Origin: Candidatus Endomicrobiellum incisitermitis | GTDB lineage: Bacteria; Elusimicrobiota; Endomicrobiia; Endomicrobiales; Endomicrobiaceae | Direction of reading: 5' to 3' | DNA length: 63,239 bases | Assembly: GCA_031275795.1 (NCBI GenBank) | Contig: JAISOG010000006.1 | Location: 1 to 63,239, forward strand | Shown here: positions 38,223 through 57,715 of the stretch, piece after piece | How the letters are laid out: each line of letters starts with the position of its first letter | How positions within the stretch are numbered: the stretch's first letter is position 1 | Notes under the pieces: model-generated | Databases searched by the model: none | What the model saw: only the letters and a program-made list of their open reading frames with translations | Told to the model about the DNA's origin: nothing | Made by a program: the position numbers and the translations under genes

Positions 38223-39401
38223 ATGATAACAAAAGATTTAATCTTAAAAATCTTTTCTGCAGCAAACATTTCAAGGTGGAATGACCACATTCGCCCTCTT
38301 GATTTTTTTGAAATTGATAAACAAGCACATAAAATTATAATTGCTTACATCCTTGCAAAATTTGAAGAAGAAAACAAAAAAAATATTGACTGGATAAAAC
38401 TTATTGAAGGTGGAATTTTTGAGTTTTTCCAAAGAATAATGCTTACAGACTTAAAACCTGAAATTTTTAGAGAAATAATGTCTAAAAAAGAATTAGAATT
38501 AAACAAATGGGTGCTAACAAATTTAAAAGATAACTTATACGCTATTGGAAATGATTTTGCTAAAAGATGTGAAAATTATCTCTTAGATAAAGAGTACGCA
38601 AAATTTGAAAGAAGAATTCTAAGCGCTTCTCATTGTCTCTCAACAAGATGGGAGTTCAACATAATTTACCCTTGGAACTCTATGCTGTACGGCATAGAAA
38701 AAACCCAAAAAAAAATAGAAGATACTGTAGTTTCTTTTGAAGATTTGATAGGAATAAGAAAGTTACTAATAAATAGGAACTATTATGGTTTTTTAGATTT
38801 ATGCGGTCAGTTAAGATTTCAACAAAGATGGGCACAAGCATTCAGGATACCCAAAACAACAGTTTTAGGACATATGCTAACAGTTGCAATTTTTGCATAT
38901 CTACTTTCAATGGAAATGAATGTTTCTAATACTAGGAAATATAACAATTTCTATTCTTCACTTTTTCATGACCTTCCAGAAATACTTACAAAAGATATAA
39001 TCTCTCCTGTAAAATCTTCCATACCAGGATTAGATGACATAATAAAACAATACGAAAATAAGCAAGTAGACGAAAAAATATTACCCTTAATACCTGACAG
39101 TTGGCATAAAGAAATACAGTATTTTATAAAAGACGAATTTTCAGACAAAATTATTGAGAATGGCACATCTAAAAGAATAGAAAATATCGATAATTTTAAT
39201 GATGATAAATATAATGCTATAGACGGTTCATTAGTAGAGATATGCGATAAATTTTGTGCCTATACAGAAGCATCGATTTCAATAAAATATGGTATAAAGT
39301 CATCAATTTTAACAAAGGCCAAGAAAAAACTTTACGATAAATATACTCAATTAACAAACACTAAATTTAACTTAAAACAAATGTTTGATTATTTTCAATA
39401 A
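38223..39401 (+). CDS. HD-domain phosphohydrolase, YfbR-like
   Basis: A 392-residue protein with an HD metal-dependent phosphohydrolase domain in the middle. The first metal ligand is His217 (LGHMLTV), the HD pair is His249-Asp250 (LFHDLPEIL), and a later Asp lies in EICDKFCAYTEA. This pattern matches the YfbR-type 5'-deoxynucleotidases and related HD hydrolases (COG1896-like). The first 190 residues are not recognised, which makes it about twice the size of YfbR. A role in nucleotide turnover or dNTP-pool cleansing beside repair genes is plausible; the substrate is unknown. Confidence 0.7.
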   Translation: MITKDLILKIFSAANISRWNDHIRPLDFFEIDKQAHKIIIAYILAKFEEENKKNIDWIKLIEGGIFEFFQRIMLTDLKPEIFREIMSKKELELNKWVLTNLKDNLYAIGNDFAKRCENYLLDKEYAKFERRILSASHCLSTRWEFNIIYPWNSMLYGIEKTQKKIEDTVVSFEDLIGIRKLLINRNYYGFLDLCGQLRFQQRWAQAFRIPKTTVLGHMLTVAIFAYLLSMEMNVSNTRKYNNFYSSLFHDLPEILTKDIISPVKSSIPGLDDIIKQYENKQVDEKILPLIPDSWHKEIQYFIKDEFSDKIIENGTSKRIENIDNFNDDKYNAIDGSLVEICDKFCAYTEASISIKYGIKSSILTKAKKKLYDKYTQLTNTKFNLKQMFDYFQ

Positions 39402-39519
39402 TACCTGACTTGGATAGTTTTAAGGAAAATGTAAGCTTTTATTTGTAAATTTGCCAGTTTATATGAAGCCAAATAAAAAAGTCAGCAGACAAGGGAAAAT
39501 GTTATATTTAGTCTGCTAT

Positions 39520-39706
39520 AGTTTAGAATCTTATCGGAGTTACCTCTAAGAGCGGTCTATGAGCAACAAACATTTAATATTTCAAATTAGCAGTGTCTGA
39601 AGCAAAATTCATTTAAGTCTTTCTTGTCTTTTCATTTTGCAAGTTTGCTAATTTGTTTAAATGTTTATTTGCGATTGCTCTAGTAACGTAGATAAGGTTC
39701 TAAACT
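39520..39706. repeat. Palindromic (MITE-like) repeat, copy 1
   Basis: Starts TAGTTTAGAATCTTATC and ends GATAAGGTTCTAAACTG; the two halves are imperfect inverted repeats of about 70 bases. The shared internal blocks are AAACATTTAA and CAAATTAGCA. There is no ORF. A second copy follows at 39745-39934 and an inverted third at 56355-56537. The 618-base stretch 39402-40019 between the HD gene and eno contains only these copies and a small hairpin (AGCAGAC at 39484-39490 with GTCTGCT at 39511-39517). Looks like a non-autonomous mobile repeat. Confidence 0.8.
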
Positions 39707-39744
39707 GGACCAAGCTAACTATTTCTGTGTCACTGGATATTGAT

Positions 39745-39934
39745 CTAGTTTAGAATCTTATCGGAGTTACCTCACAGAGCGGCCTATGAGCAATAAACAT
39801 TTAATATTTCAAATTAGCAGTGTCTGAAGCAAAATTCATTTAAGTCCTTCTTGTCTTATTATTTTGCGAGTTTGCTAATTTGTTTAAATGTTTATTGCGA
39901 TTGCTCTAGTAACGTAGATAAGGTTCTAAACTAG
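39745..39934. repeat. Palindromic (MITE-like) repeat, copy 2
   Basis: Nearly identical to copy 1, in the same orientation, separated from it by about 38 bases. It begins CTAGTTTAGAATCTTATC and ends with GATAAGGTTCTAAACTAG. The pair is bracketed by TTTAGTCTGCT (39507-39517) and its complement AGCAGACTAAA (39935-39945), so the whole block is itself an inverted repeat. This suggests either duplication of one element or insertion of one copy into or next to another. Confidence 0.8.
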
Positions 39935-40019
39935 AGCAGACTAAACTTTTAACACTTGCAAAACTCACATTCACTGAAAGATTACCATATCATTATGCGT
40001 AAACCCTTCAGCACTATAA

Positions 40020-41327
40020 TTACTTGGCAATAGAAGAAAAAGCAGACTTACCTAAATAACTAGCTTTAGCACCTAATTCTTCTTCTATCCTTAAAAGCTG
40101 ATTATACTTGCACATTCTATCTGTTCTTGAAGCAGAACCTGTTTTAATTTGACCTGTATTTAAAGCTACCGCTAAATCAGCAATTATAGTGTCTTCCGTC
40201 TCGCCAGAACGATGAGATATAATTGCAGTATACCCTGCTTTATATGCCATTTGGACAGCTGCAACAGTTTCTGAAAGAGAACCTATCTGATTTACCTTTA
40301 TAAGGATAGAGTTCCCTATACCTTTTTCTATCCCCTCTTTAAATATTTTTGTATTAGTAACAAAAAGATCATCGCCTACAAGTTGGAGTTTTGATTTAAG
40401 TTCTTCTGTTAAAAATTTCCAACCGTCCCAGTCAGATTCACTAAGACCATCTTCTATAGATATAATTGGATATTTTTCTAACCACGCACTATAAAGAGAG
40501 ATCATATCTTTTGAGGATTTTTCTTTACCTTCTATTTCTCCTTCCAAAACATACTTGTTATTGTCATACAACCCACTTGCTGCAACATCTAAGGCAAAAA
40601 CTATATCTTGGCCTACTTTATATCCAGTCTTTTTTACAGCTTCAACTATTACTTCTAAAGCTTGCGAATTTGATTTTAAGTTAGGGGCAAAACCACCCTC
40701 ATCACCAACTCCAGTAGCGTACCCCTTTTCATTTAAAACCTTTTTTAAACCATGAAAAATTTCACAGCCCATTCTTAAAGCTTCTCTAAAATTTGGAGCA
40801 CTTACAGGAGCTATCATAAACTCTTGCAAATCAACATTGTTGTCTGCATGCTCTCCACCATTTATAATATTCATAAGAGGTACAGGTAAAATATATTTAT
40901 CATCTTCAATATTATAAATTTCTCTTATATATTTATAAATTGGCATTTTTTTAGAACTTGCACCAGCTTTTGCACAGGCAAGTGATGCCCCTAAAATTGC
41001 GTTAGCACCTAAATTACTCTTAAAGTCCGTACCATCTAATTTTATCATTATATTGTCAATTTCTTGTTGGTTTGTAATTTCAAGGCCTAAAAGTTTTGGA
41101 GCAATTATATTATTAACATTTGAAACCGCCTTTAGTACACCCTTGCCATCAAATCTTTTTTTGTCGCCATCCCTAAGTTCTAAAGCTTCTCTTGAACCAG
41201 TTGAAGCTCCTGACGGAACAGCAGCTCTTGCAAAAGAACCATCATCAAGAGTAACATCAACTTCTACTGTAGGATTCCCACGAGAATCAATGATTTCTCT
41301 ACCAATAATCTTTACAATTTTTGCCAT
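40020..41327 (-). CDS. eno: Enolase
   Basis: Glycolytic enzyme converting 2-phosphoglycerate to phosphoenolpyruvate. The 435-residue protein has the standard start [19 protein letters not shown], the substrate loop [14 protein letters not shown], and the signature [17 protein letters not shown] near the C-terminus. A GGGGGA nine bases upstream of the ATG lies in the end of the previous gene. It is transcribed after a predicted secreted protein, with no room for a promoter between them. Confidence 0.98.
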
Positions 41328-53955: not shown

Positions 53956-54000
53956 TTGTTACAAGTCTTTAAATATAAACTTTCCTTTTACTACCAAAGT

Positions 54001-56271
54001 ATGCAAACTCTTTTAATATCATTAGCAGGCTTTTCAACGGCTTTACTACAGTTGTTATTTTTTAGAGAAGTTTTATCTATATTTAACGGAATAGACCTTG
54101 TTATTGGATTTTTTGTATCTAGTACAATTTTTTCTTTCACTTTAGGTATTTATACATTGTTTCATTTTAAACTAGTTAAAAACGAAATTAAATATGTTTT
54201 TTCTAGTACTTTTCTTCTTATGCTTTTTTCTTTAACATCTTTTATTTTTTTGCAAAATATTAGGTTTATTTTTAATATCCCTTTAGGTTCAGAAATTTCT
54301 TTAAAAAATACTTTTATTTCTATATTTTTTACATTATTTCCAATTAGCTTTCTGCAAGGCTCTCTTTTATTTTCGATAACAAAACTATGTTGTTTAATCC
54401 AAGAAACCTCAACAAAAAACAAATTTTGTAACCAATCATCTCTCGATACGCTTGATAATAGCACAAATACCAAGTTAATTGACAACAACAAAAAGTTACA
54501 AAATGTAGAACCAATAATAAAAGACAAAAACTATTTGAAATATTTTTTTTCTTACTCATTTAGCTTTATAGTTGCAAGTTTATTATACTCATACTTATTT
54601 TACACATTTATTGGGACAAGAATACTTATAATAGTTTTTATTTCTTTGATAACAATCACATTTATTATATCTAAAAGTAAAACTATGATAAGTCTTGTAT
54701 TATTATCAATATGTATATTATTTTCTTTATTTTTATCAAACCTGCCTGAAAGAATTGATAAACAGATCTTAAATAAAAATTTTTCAAATACTGAAATTGG
54801 AAGCTATCATCACACACCTTATGGACAAATTGTTTTAACGCAAAAAAATAACGAGCATCATTTTTTAGTTAATAACTCTCTTCTATTTTCTTTACCAGAC
54901 AATAACATTATAGAATCAGAAGATTTTGTACACATTTCAATGTTGCACCATCAAAACCCTAAAAATATTTTGATAATAGGCAAAATCTTAAAATGTCTAC
55001 CTATAATACTTAAATATAATATTGATACTATTGACTACGCAATAAACAACAAAAAAATTATAGAAAATATTAAACCCCAAATTACTAATCTAGATATTAT
55101 GTTAAACGACAAAAGATTACATATTTATAACCAGAACACAAAATACTTCGTCGCACACAATAAAAATAAGTATGATTTAGTGTTTATTGCTCTTGATACT
55201 CCAACAAATTTATATATAAATAGTTTTTATTCTAAAGAATTTTTTGAAATCGCTAAATACTCTTTAAAAAAAGACGGATTTTTGGCATTACAACTACCAG
55301 GGAAAATGGTTTTTCACTCTTATGTTACAACACAATTAAACCAATCTATAATAGAAGCATTAAAAGCAAATTTCAAAGAAGTAAGAATAGTGCCTGGCAC
55401 AAAAAACATTATACTAGCATCACAAACTCCAATGCCTTATAGAATGTTTATAAAAAGACATTTAAAAAAAGTACAAGACAAAACATTAGTATTAACAAAA
55501 TACCATATTGACGAAAGAATGGACACAGAAAAGACAAAATGGTTAACAGCCGAACTAAAAAAACTAAATTATAGAAGCATTACAAATACAATATGTACAC
55601 CATATGCCATGATTTTTTCTGTATTGTACGAGCAAGCCAAATTTTCCCCATATTTGAGTATTATTTTAGATAAAATATCACAGTATTCTTATTTTATTAT
55701 TTTTGGGATAATAATTATCTTTTTTTTATCAAAATCTATATATAAAACTTCATCTTTTACATGCATGTCAACATCTTGTTGGCTTAATTTTATTATTATT
55801 TTTATCTTACAAAGTTATAATGGGCAAACCTACAAATTAGTTGGACTGTTTTTATCTCTATTTATTTTAGGTGCTGTTTTTGGAACATTTCTAGCAAAAA
55901 ATACATTAAAATCTGTATTAGCAAAAAGAAAAATTCTTTTTACAGAAGTTCTATTTTTAATTATAATTTCTACATTGTTTATATTTTTAAAAACAAGTAA
56001 AGAAAATTCATGGTTATTGTATATATTCCTATTTTTTTCAGGATTCGCGTTAGGTATTGAGCTTTTACTTCTTATAGAAATATCTGAAATCCATCAAAAC
56101 ATAAAAAAAATATTATTGTCAGGGGTCTTTGGAGCATTTGTTACGTTCACATTAGGAGGAAGTTTTTTAATTTTAGTTTGGGGAATACAGAATTCAATTT
56201 TATTTATACTATTCTTCAAATTTTTAATTTTTTGTCGTTGGGCAGATTTAACAAAATACAAAATCATATAA
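54001..56271 (+). CDS. Spermidine synthase-like membrane protein with degenerate methyltransferase domain
   Basis: A 756-residue integral membrane protein. It starts MQTLLISLAGFSTALLQLLF with several transmembrane helices, a layout known from membrane proteins with a fused spermidine-synthase-like domain. The central soluble part (about residues 260-480) resembles that domain (YGQIVLTQKNNEHHFLVNN, then VHISMLHHQNPKNILIIG), but the usual SAM-binding glycine motif is reduced to IIGKIL and the acidic catalytic residues are not evident. The C-terminal third has about six more helices. The ATG at 54001 lacks a Shine-Dalgarno site. Function is unknown; polyamine synthesis is doubtful. Confidence 0.6.
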   Translation: MQTLLISLAGFSTALLQLLFFREVLSIFNGIDLVIGFFVSSTIFSFTLGIYTLFHFKLVKNEIKYVFSSTFLLMLFSLTSFIFLQNIRFIFNIPLGSEISLKNTFISIFFTLFPISFLQGSLLFSITKLCCLIQETSTKNKFCNQSSLDTLDNSTNTKLIDNNKKLQNVEPIIKDKNYLKYFFSYSFSFIVASLLYSYLFYTFIGTRILIIVFISLITITFIISKSKTMISLVLLSICILFSLFLSNLPERIDKQILNKNFSNTEIGSYHHTPYGQIVLTQKNNEHHFLVNNSLLFSLPDNNIIESEDFVHISMLHHQNPKNILIIGKILKCLPIILKYNIDTIDYAINNKKIIENIKPQITNLDIMLNDKRLHIYNQNTKYFVAHNKNKYDLVFIALDTPTNLYINSFYSKEFFEIAKYSLKKDGFLALQLPGKMVFHSYVTTQLNQSIIEALKANFKEVRIVPGTKNIILASQTPMPYRMFIKRHLKKVQDKTLVLTKYHIDERMDTEKTKWLTAELKKLNYRSITNTICTPYAMIFSVLYEQAKFSPYLSIILDKISQYSYFIIFGIIIIFFLSKSIYKTSSFTCMSTSCWLNFIIIFILQSYNGQTYKLVGLFLSLFILGAVFGTFLAKNTLKSVLAKRKILFTEVLFLIIISTLFIFLKTSKENSWLLYIFLFFSGFALGIELLLLIEISEIHQNIKKILLSGVFGAFVTFTLGGSFLILVWGIQNSILFILFFKFLIFCRWADLTKYKII

Positions 56272-56354: not shown

Positions 56355-56537
56355 GTTAGTTTAGTATATTATCTAGGTTACTAGACCAATCGCAATAAAC
56401 TTTTAATCAAATTAGCAAACTTGCAAAATAATAAAACAAGAAAGACTTAAATGTATTTAGCTTCATACATTGCTTAATTGCAATATTAAGTGTTTATTGC
56501 TCATATGCGGCTCTTTGTGCAAAGACACTAAACTAAC
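56355..56537. repeat. Palindromic (MITE-like) repeat, copy 3, inverted
   Basis: Reverse complement of the repeats at 39520-39934. GTTACTAGACCAATCGCAAT and the AAATTAGCAAACTTGCAAAA block match the right arm of copy 2, and GTGTTTATTGCTCATATGCG matches its left arm. About ten bases are missing near the right end, and point changes are more frequent than between copies 1 and 2, so it is older. It fills most of the 364-base gap between the spermidine-synthase-like gene and aroB. The rest of that gap holds nothing I can name. Confidence 0.8.
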
Positions 56538-56635
56538 TTCTTTAATGTCTAAATTTATATTTGAAATTTGTAAACAAATGTGTCAGTTAGATAAAAAAAT
56601 TGAAAAAAAGATTGCAAAAGTGTAGTATAACATTA

Positions 56636-57715
56636 ATGAAAAAAATAACTGTAAGCTTAAAAGATAATAAATACGATATTTTAATTTCACAAAATCAAAA
56701 CAAATTTCTTTCAGCTTTAAAAAAAGCTATAAAAACAAACACTTTTTTTATTATTACAGACAATAACGTAAAGAAAGTACATTTAAACTTTATTTTGAAA
56801 TTATTAAAAAAACAAGGATATAGTGTTAAAATAGCAGTTATAAACGCTGGAGAGTCTGAGAAAAATATAAAAAATTTATCATTTTTGTACGACAAAGCCC
56901 TAAAGGACCGCATAGACAGAAAAAGTTGCGTAATAGCTTTAGGAGGTGGAGTTGTAGGTGACATTGCTGGTTTTTTTGCTGCAACGTTCATGCGTGGAAT
57001 TAGTTTTATACAAATTCCTACCACTTTACTTGCAATGACAGACTCTTCAATCGGAGGCAAAACTGCAATAAATACTGCTAAAGGTAAAAACATAGCTGGT
57101 GTATTTTATCAACCAAAACTTGTTTGGATTAATGTACATTTTTTAACTACTCTCCCAATACAGCATCTAAAAAATGGACTTGCCGAAGTTATCAAATATG
57201 CACTAGTTTTTGACAAAAAATTTTACACACATATAAAAAGTGAATTAACTAATGGATTTTTAGAAGATTTTGATTATTTAATATACAAGTGCTGCTTTTA
57301 TAAATCACAAATCGTAAAAAAAGATGAGAAAGAAATATCTAGACTTAGAATTATTTTAAATTTTGGGCACACGTTTGCACATGCTTTAGAAACTTATAGT
57401 GCTTATAAAAAGTTCTTGCACGGAGAAGCTGTAGCAATTGGCATGTTATTTGCAAGTTTAGTTTCATTAAAGTTAAAGTTATGTTCTAAAAAAACTTTTA
57501 AAGAAGTAAAACAAATTTTAAATCTTGCAGGTTTTAAATTACATGTTAAAATAAACATAAAACAATTTTTTAATTTAATGAAGAACGATAAAAAAACCAT
57601 TTCTGGCAACATCAATCTTATTTTAATATCTGAAATAGGTAAAACAAAAAATATTTTGGTAAAAGATAATATTATTTTAAATGTATTAAAAAATTTTTCT
57701 GGAGCAAAAAAATGA
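56636..57715 (+). CDS. aroB: 3-dehydroquinate synthase
   Basis: Second enzyme of the shikimate pathway, forming 3-dehydroquinate from DAHP with NAD and a metal. The protein (359 residues from the ATG at 56636) shows ALGGGVVGDIAGFFAATFMR, IPTTLLAMTDSSIGGKTAIN and the metal-binding FGHTFAHALE and HGEAVAIGM. A TTG at 56600 is in frame but lies in AT-rich DNA beside the repeat; no clear ribosome-binding site is seen for either. The stop codon overlaps the start of the broken aroQ, the next pathway gene. Confidence 0.95.
   Translation: MKKITVSLKDNKYDILISQNQNKFLSALKKAIKTNTFFIITDNNVKKVHLNFILKLLKKQGYSVKIAVINAGESEKNIKNLSFLYDKALKDRIDRKSCVIALGGGVVGDIAGFFAATFMRGISFIQIPTTLLAMTDSSIGGKTAINTAKGKNIAGVFYQPKLVWINVHFLTTLPIQHLKNGLAEVIKYALVFDKKFYTHIKSELTNGFLEDFDYLIYKCCFYKSQIVKKDEKEISRLRIILNFGHTFAHALETYSAYKKFLHGEAVAIGMLFASLVSLKLKLCSKKTFKEVKQILNLAGFKLHVKINIKQFFNLMKNDKKTISGNINLILISEIGKTKNILVKDNIILNVLKNFSGAKK

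Follow-up and report, generated by a model that had tools for sequence, protein, structure and literature searches.

The 63,239-nt stretch analysed here (hereafter, the window) belongs to a 1.24-Mb draft genome, G000, of Endomicrobiellum (Elusimicrobiota), a genus of endosymbionts living in termite-gut flagellates. It carries two long palindromes in tandem between an HD-domain gene and eno, and a third, inverted, upstream of aroB, which raises the question of what these sequences are, how they spread and what they do to the genome around them. We consider it probable that they are new MITE-like palindromes, which spread mostly before the species carrying them split and now provide recombining repeat homology that moves gene blocks.

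The three copies in the window

The earlier note on this DNA had described two tandem copies and an inverted one at 56355-56537; blastn and profile matches, together with the hairpin fold, place them as follows.

38223..39401, (+): HD-domain gene (PF13023), left of the tandem pair
39507..39516, (+): left bracket arm TTTAGTCTGC, an inverted repeat specific to the window site
39519..39707, (+): element copy 1, core of 189 nt (blastn/profile matches and hairpin fold)
39708..39745, (+): spacer between the tandem copies
39746..39932, (+): element copy 2, core of 187 nt (blastn/profile matches and hairpin fold)
39936..39945, (-): right bracket arm GCAGACTAAA, an inverted repeat specific to the window site
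40020..41327, (-): eno, right of the tandem pair
53956..56271, (+): gene with a spermidine-synthase domain (PF01564), left of the third copy
56357..56535, (-): third copy, decayed, in the opposite orientation
56600..57715, (+): aroB (DHQ_synthase), right of the third copy

The tandem copies share 95% identity and form, core and spacer together, a 227-nt repeat unit, whose spacer type is also found between copies on contigs C15, C32 and C13. The third copy has a short deletion and shares 86-87% identity with them, and none of the window elements contains a long ORF. The ends TAGTTTAGAA...TTCTAAACTA are present as had been stated, and so is the inverted sequence that brackets the pair. The bracket is not a family trait, as complementarity between the outer flanks at 38 clusters does not exceed that of shuffled pairs (p = 0.15); insertion into pre-existing palindromes was rejected on the same ground. 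Close to its two contig ends (24-143 and 62827-62946), the window also holds the arms of a 120-nt inverted repeat, 90% complementary, whose sequence looks like the 3' portion of a multi-copy gene that may have broken the assembly.

An intergenic family in four close species

A profile made from full copies, and applied to the G000 stretches fetched around blastn matches, gave 73 matches in 40 clusters, 28 of them near full length. With this number and blastn E-values reaching 1e-95, the repeat is not a product of chance, and the expectation of many copies in the genome, drawn from only three, is borne out. The same holds for the description of a dispersed, non-coding, multi-copy family, since none of the 40 clusters overlaps an ORF of 90 aa or more, every one being intergenic. 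Many copies are truncated, and an extra decayed half copy lies at C15:64236. Among 42 genomes of the genus, the family is present in four, which are about 94% identical to one another, namely G000, Em. roisinitermitis (G017), Em. cryptotermitis (G043) and Endomicrobium sp. Gx481 (G023). It is absent from the next relatives in this set, at about 84% identity, and has no match in viral contigs; the main text of a survey of Endomicrobia genomes is silent on repeats of this kind.

The consensus core, of about 189 nt, runs from GGTC followed by TAGTTTAGAA to TTCTAAACTA followed by GACC, with ends GGTCTAGTTTAGAA/TTCTAAACTAGACC. Orientation is uniform in about 14 of the 15 multi-copy clusters, which form head-to-tail arrays with recurrent spacers. 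The first arm of the element has an open frame (SLEPYRSYLKERSMSNKHLIFQIS), and a spacer at C31 reads as coding; a coding origin was nevertheless rejected because many copies carry stops, and the open frames were taken as chance or as captured gene fragments. Copies at L022, L031, L035 and L041 border fragments resembling repeat-rich surface-protein genes, a possible source of the spacers in some arrays. Furthermore, the element is accompanied by the same neighbour of about 300 bp (promoter and gene start) at two G000 loci (C48:25327-25519 and C32:15848-16040), and the whole looks copied as one piece.

In the long form of the repeat, a second palindrome, about 164 nt long and with ends GGGTCTCTCTAAAAACC (for example L119:10639-10799), is inserted between positions 68 and 77. 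An insertion at the hairpin apex was rejected, as 68/77 falls in the stem. All of the approximately 15 G000 copies of this second palindrome appear nested in the first element, one contig-end copy being less certain. At G023:C24:96836-96999 and G043:C4:59263-59426 it is free of the first element, and standing alone it shows 4-bp duplications such as AAAT/AAAT. It also occurs outside the first element in G023, in G020 and in another genus of the family; its range covers several species of the genus and that one other genus. With regard to insertion sequences, the end of an IS110-type element (transposase, PF01548) adjoins element position 77 at C16, and its end sequence recurs at C32:46513, so that a target preference of this IS for the repeat is possible. 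An IS110-type transposase end adjoins one and the same element position at L045:2493-3055 and at L005:748-1465.

Old sites with probably exchanged cores

In sister species, the sites C15:39075, C26:11698, C32:5830 and that beside eno either carry the element or retain remnants of it, and the outgroups G020 and G004 are short at C15:39075 and C26:11698. The site of the third window copy is occupied in G017 too, and in G004 the adjoining gene and aroB meet without an element; related species differ in length at the window sites, in support of the earlier note. Since most tested sites are common to all four species, the spread of the family largely predates their split. Two candidate empty sites in G023 were discarded, that for C48 because the left flank is non-homologous and that at C32:5830 because an end remnant is kept. 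A 445-bp stretch of C32 (L121:7811-8254), found in G000 and missing in G017, G023 and G043, was likewise set aside as not being the element; it resembles a putative nucleotidyltransferase/HEPN-type gene pair.

The flanks of orthologous loci mostly share 95-97% identity and their cores 84-96%, while paralogous cores are about 89% identical. The core is flipped at two orthologous loci, one of which is the window site compared with G017. Furthermore, the copies group by genome on a tree (19 changes vs 26.9 with shuffled labels). Low core identity, flips and grouping by genome fit exchange between copies, the exact process being presumptive. Recombination between copies would replace and flip cores at fixed sites, and would also build head-to-tail arrays.

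Mode of spread and alternative readings

The repeat resembles a MITE in being shorter than 500 bp, non-coding and multi-copy, with terminal inverted repeats. The earlier note had proposed a non-autonomous element, and the non-coding multi-copy palindrome stands; the two further marks that it had suggested looking for did not appear. True flank pairs show no target-site duplication above shuffled ones (p = 0.16), and no transposase with matching ends was seen among the end-pattern matches listed or in the fetched loci. As duplications failed to emerge and no parental element was found, we call the repeat MITE-like and stop short of classing it as a proven MITE, and its mode of spread can be proposed rather than read off: a transposase acting in trans would have carried it through intergenic DNA, mostly before the four close Endomicrobiellum species parted. 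According to a review, target-site duplications of MITEs fade with age (PMC10969869).

It is unlikely that the family is an actively transposing MITE which a resident insertion sequence, sharing its ends, continues to mobilise. Its terminal inverted repeats, many copies and intergenic placement agree with such activity, as do the grouping of copies by genome, a variant carried by 22 of 28 G000 copies vs 1 of 28 in G017 and G023, and a single exact 8-bp flank pair, TTTATAAA; on the other hand, target duplication is not general, the tested sites are common to several species, and no lone ends surround a transposase among the matches listed. If a tyrosine transposase of the RAYT or IS200/IS605 type moved the palindrome, the lack of a target duplication would be accounted for, but the core of about 189 nt is far above the size of REPs, defined as 20-40 bp palindromes with a GTAG or CGTC tag (PMC3733652), and we regard this route as quite unlikely.

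The earlier note had also raised the possibility of hairpin RNAs. The predicted fold is strong, the tandem pair reaching -154 kcal/mol (z = -12.0, 0/100 shuffles) and a single copy -69.4 kcal/mol (z = -7.6), with a mean of -63.6 kcal/mol for the 28 near full-length copies. A structured RNA located at the ends of genes, with a regulatory or processing role and its hairpin under selection, would accord with this stability and with the exclusively intergenic placement. However, none of 28 predicted pairs shows a compensatory change among 46 copies, Rfam gives no match for the repeat, and many copies are truncated. The genes around copies (21 tandem, 5 convergent and 2 divergent) resemble the window in their orientations, and no orientation preference of the repeat relative to genes is evident. 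Without covariation or an Rfam match, an RNA function is unsupported here, and we judge it very improbable.

Gene blocks apparently moved at copies

In the window, the tandem pair alone separates eno from the HD gene. In G004 and G020, ftsB and tRNA-Leu(CAG) directly follow eno, without an element, while G017 has the order eno-copy-ftsB-tRNA-Leu-copy-HD, with which the G043 contigs are consistent, its order being read from two contigs. In G000, the block lies on contig C19, in the order copy-ftsB-tRNA-Leu-copy-M42 peptidase; in G017, a copy is already found beside the M42 gene, with the same outer flank as in G000. The ftsB-tRNA-Leu(CAG) block has apparently moved away from the window pair site to another contig. 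The earlier note had thus seen the element, while the block missing beside it was invisible from the window. Recombination between copies would move such blocks, but a simple deletion between two copies leaves one, not two, so that the window pair requires either an array already in place or some additional step.

A second case concerns the left flank of C15:53270, which neighbours the right flank of C26:24979 in G043, G020 and G004. In G000, these flanks are apart, each ending at an element cluster (C15:53270 and C26:24785). The G043 junction carries an element remnant, so this locus was not element-free there. In both cases, the differences in order have their breakpoints at copies; that recombination caused the moves, like the flips and core replacement, is what we infer.

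The compared genomes are drafts in which many contigs end inside copies, and C19 itself starts within one, as would be expected if the relocation were a repeat-caused assembly artefact and the G000 order were that of its sisters. Against this, no exact match between the window site and the C19 copies exceeds 73 nt, which lowers the chance of a false join, and the C19 junction beside the tRNA has lost about 85 nt vs G017 and G043. We hold an artefact to be unlikely. A stronger claim, that the palindromes are recurrent recombination cassettes relocating blocks with essential genes (ftsB, tRNA) and a main source of synteny change in the clade, is one that we put forward tentatively and hold to be doubtful.

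Known systems and meaning for reduced genomes

Compared by description, the repeat would behave as MITEs and palindromic repeats of other bacteria do. The closest analogue appears to be QMITE2 of Coxiella burnetii, of 150-190 bp, with about 50 copies lying chiefly between genes or 3' of them, which predates strain divergence, is the target of an IS1111 element and has been proposed for rearrangement tracking (PMC5896051). The likeness, in description and not in sequence, concerns size, copy number, intergenic placement, age and IS targeting, the palindromic core here being an IS110/IS1111-type target (C16, C32:46513); QMITE2, however, has 7-11 nt direct repeats and a GTAG REP, whereas the present repeat lacks general direct repeats. 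The Correia/NEMIS elements of Neisseria similarly have stem-loops and a long form that differs from the short one by an internal stretch (PMC2229807), but here that stretch is an independent palindromic element, which stands alone elsewhere, in other genomes. Rickettsia palindromic elements are likewise long stem-loop repeats of an intracellular bacterium (PMC2229807), which also occur in-frame within genes, unlike the clusters described here. MITECca01 of Cardinium resembles the family by description as a lineage-specific, mostly intergenic MITE of a reduced endosymbiont genome (PMC9769881), but its parental IS982-family element is known, whereas none was found here.

MITEs have hardly been reported in vertically inherited endosymbionts (PMC9769881). 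The four close species of Endomicrobiellum let shared and moved sites be compared directly, so that the role of small repeats in rearranging reduced genomes becomes testable.
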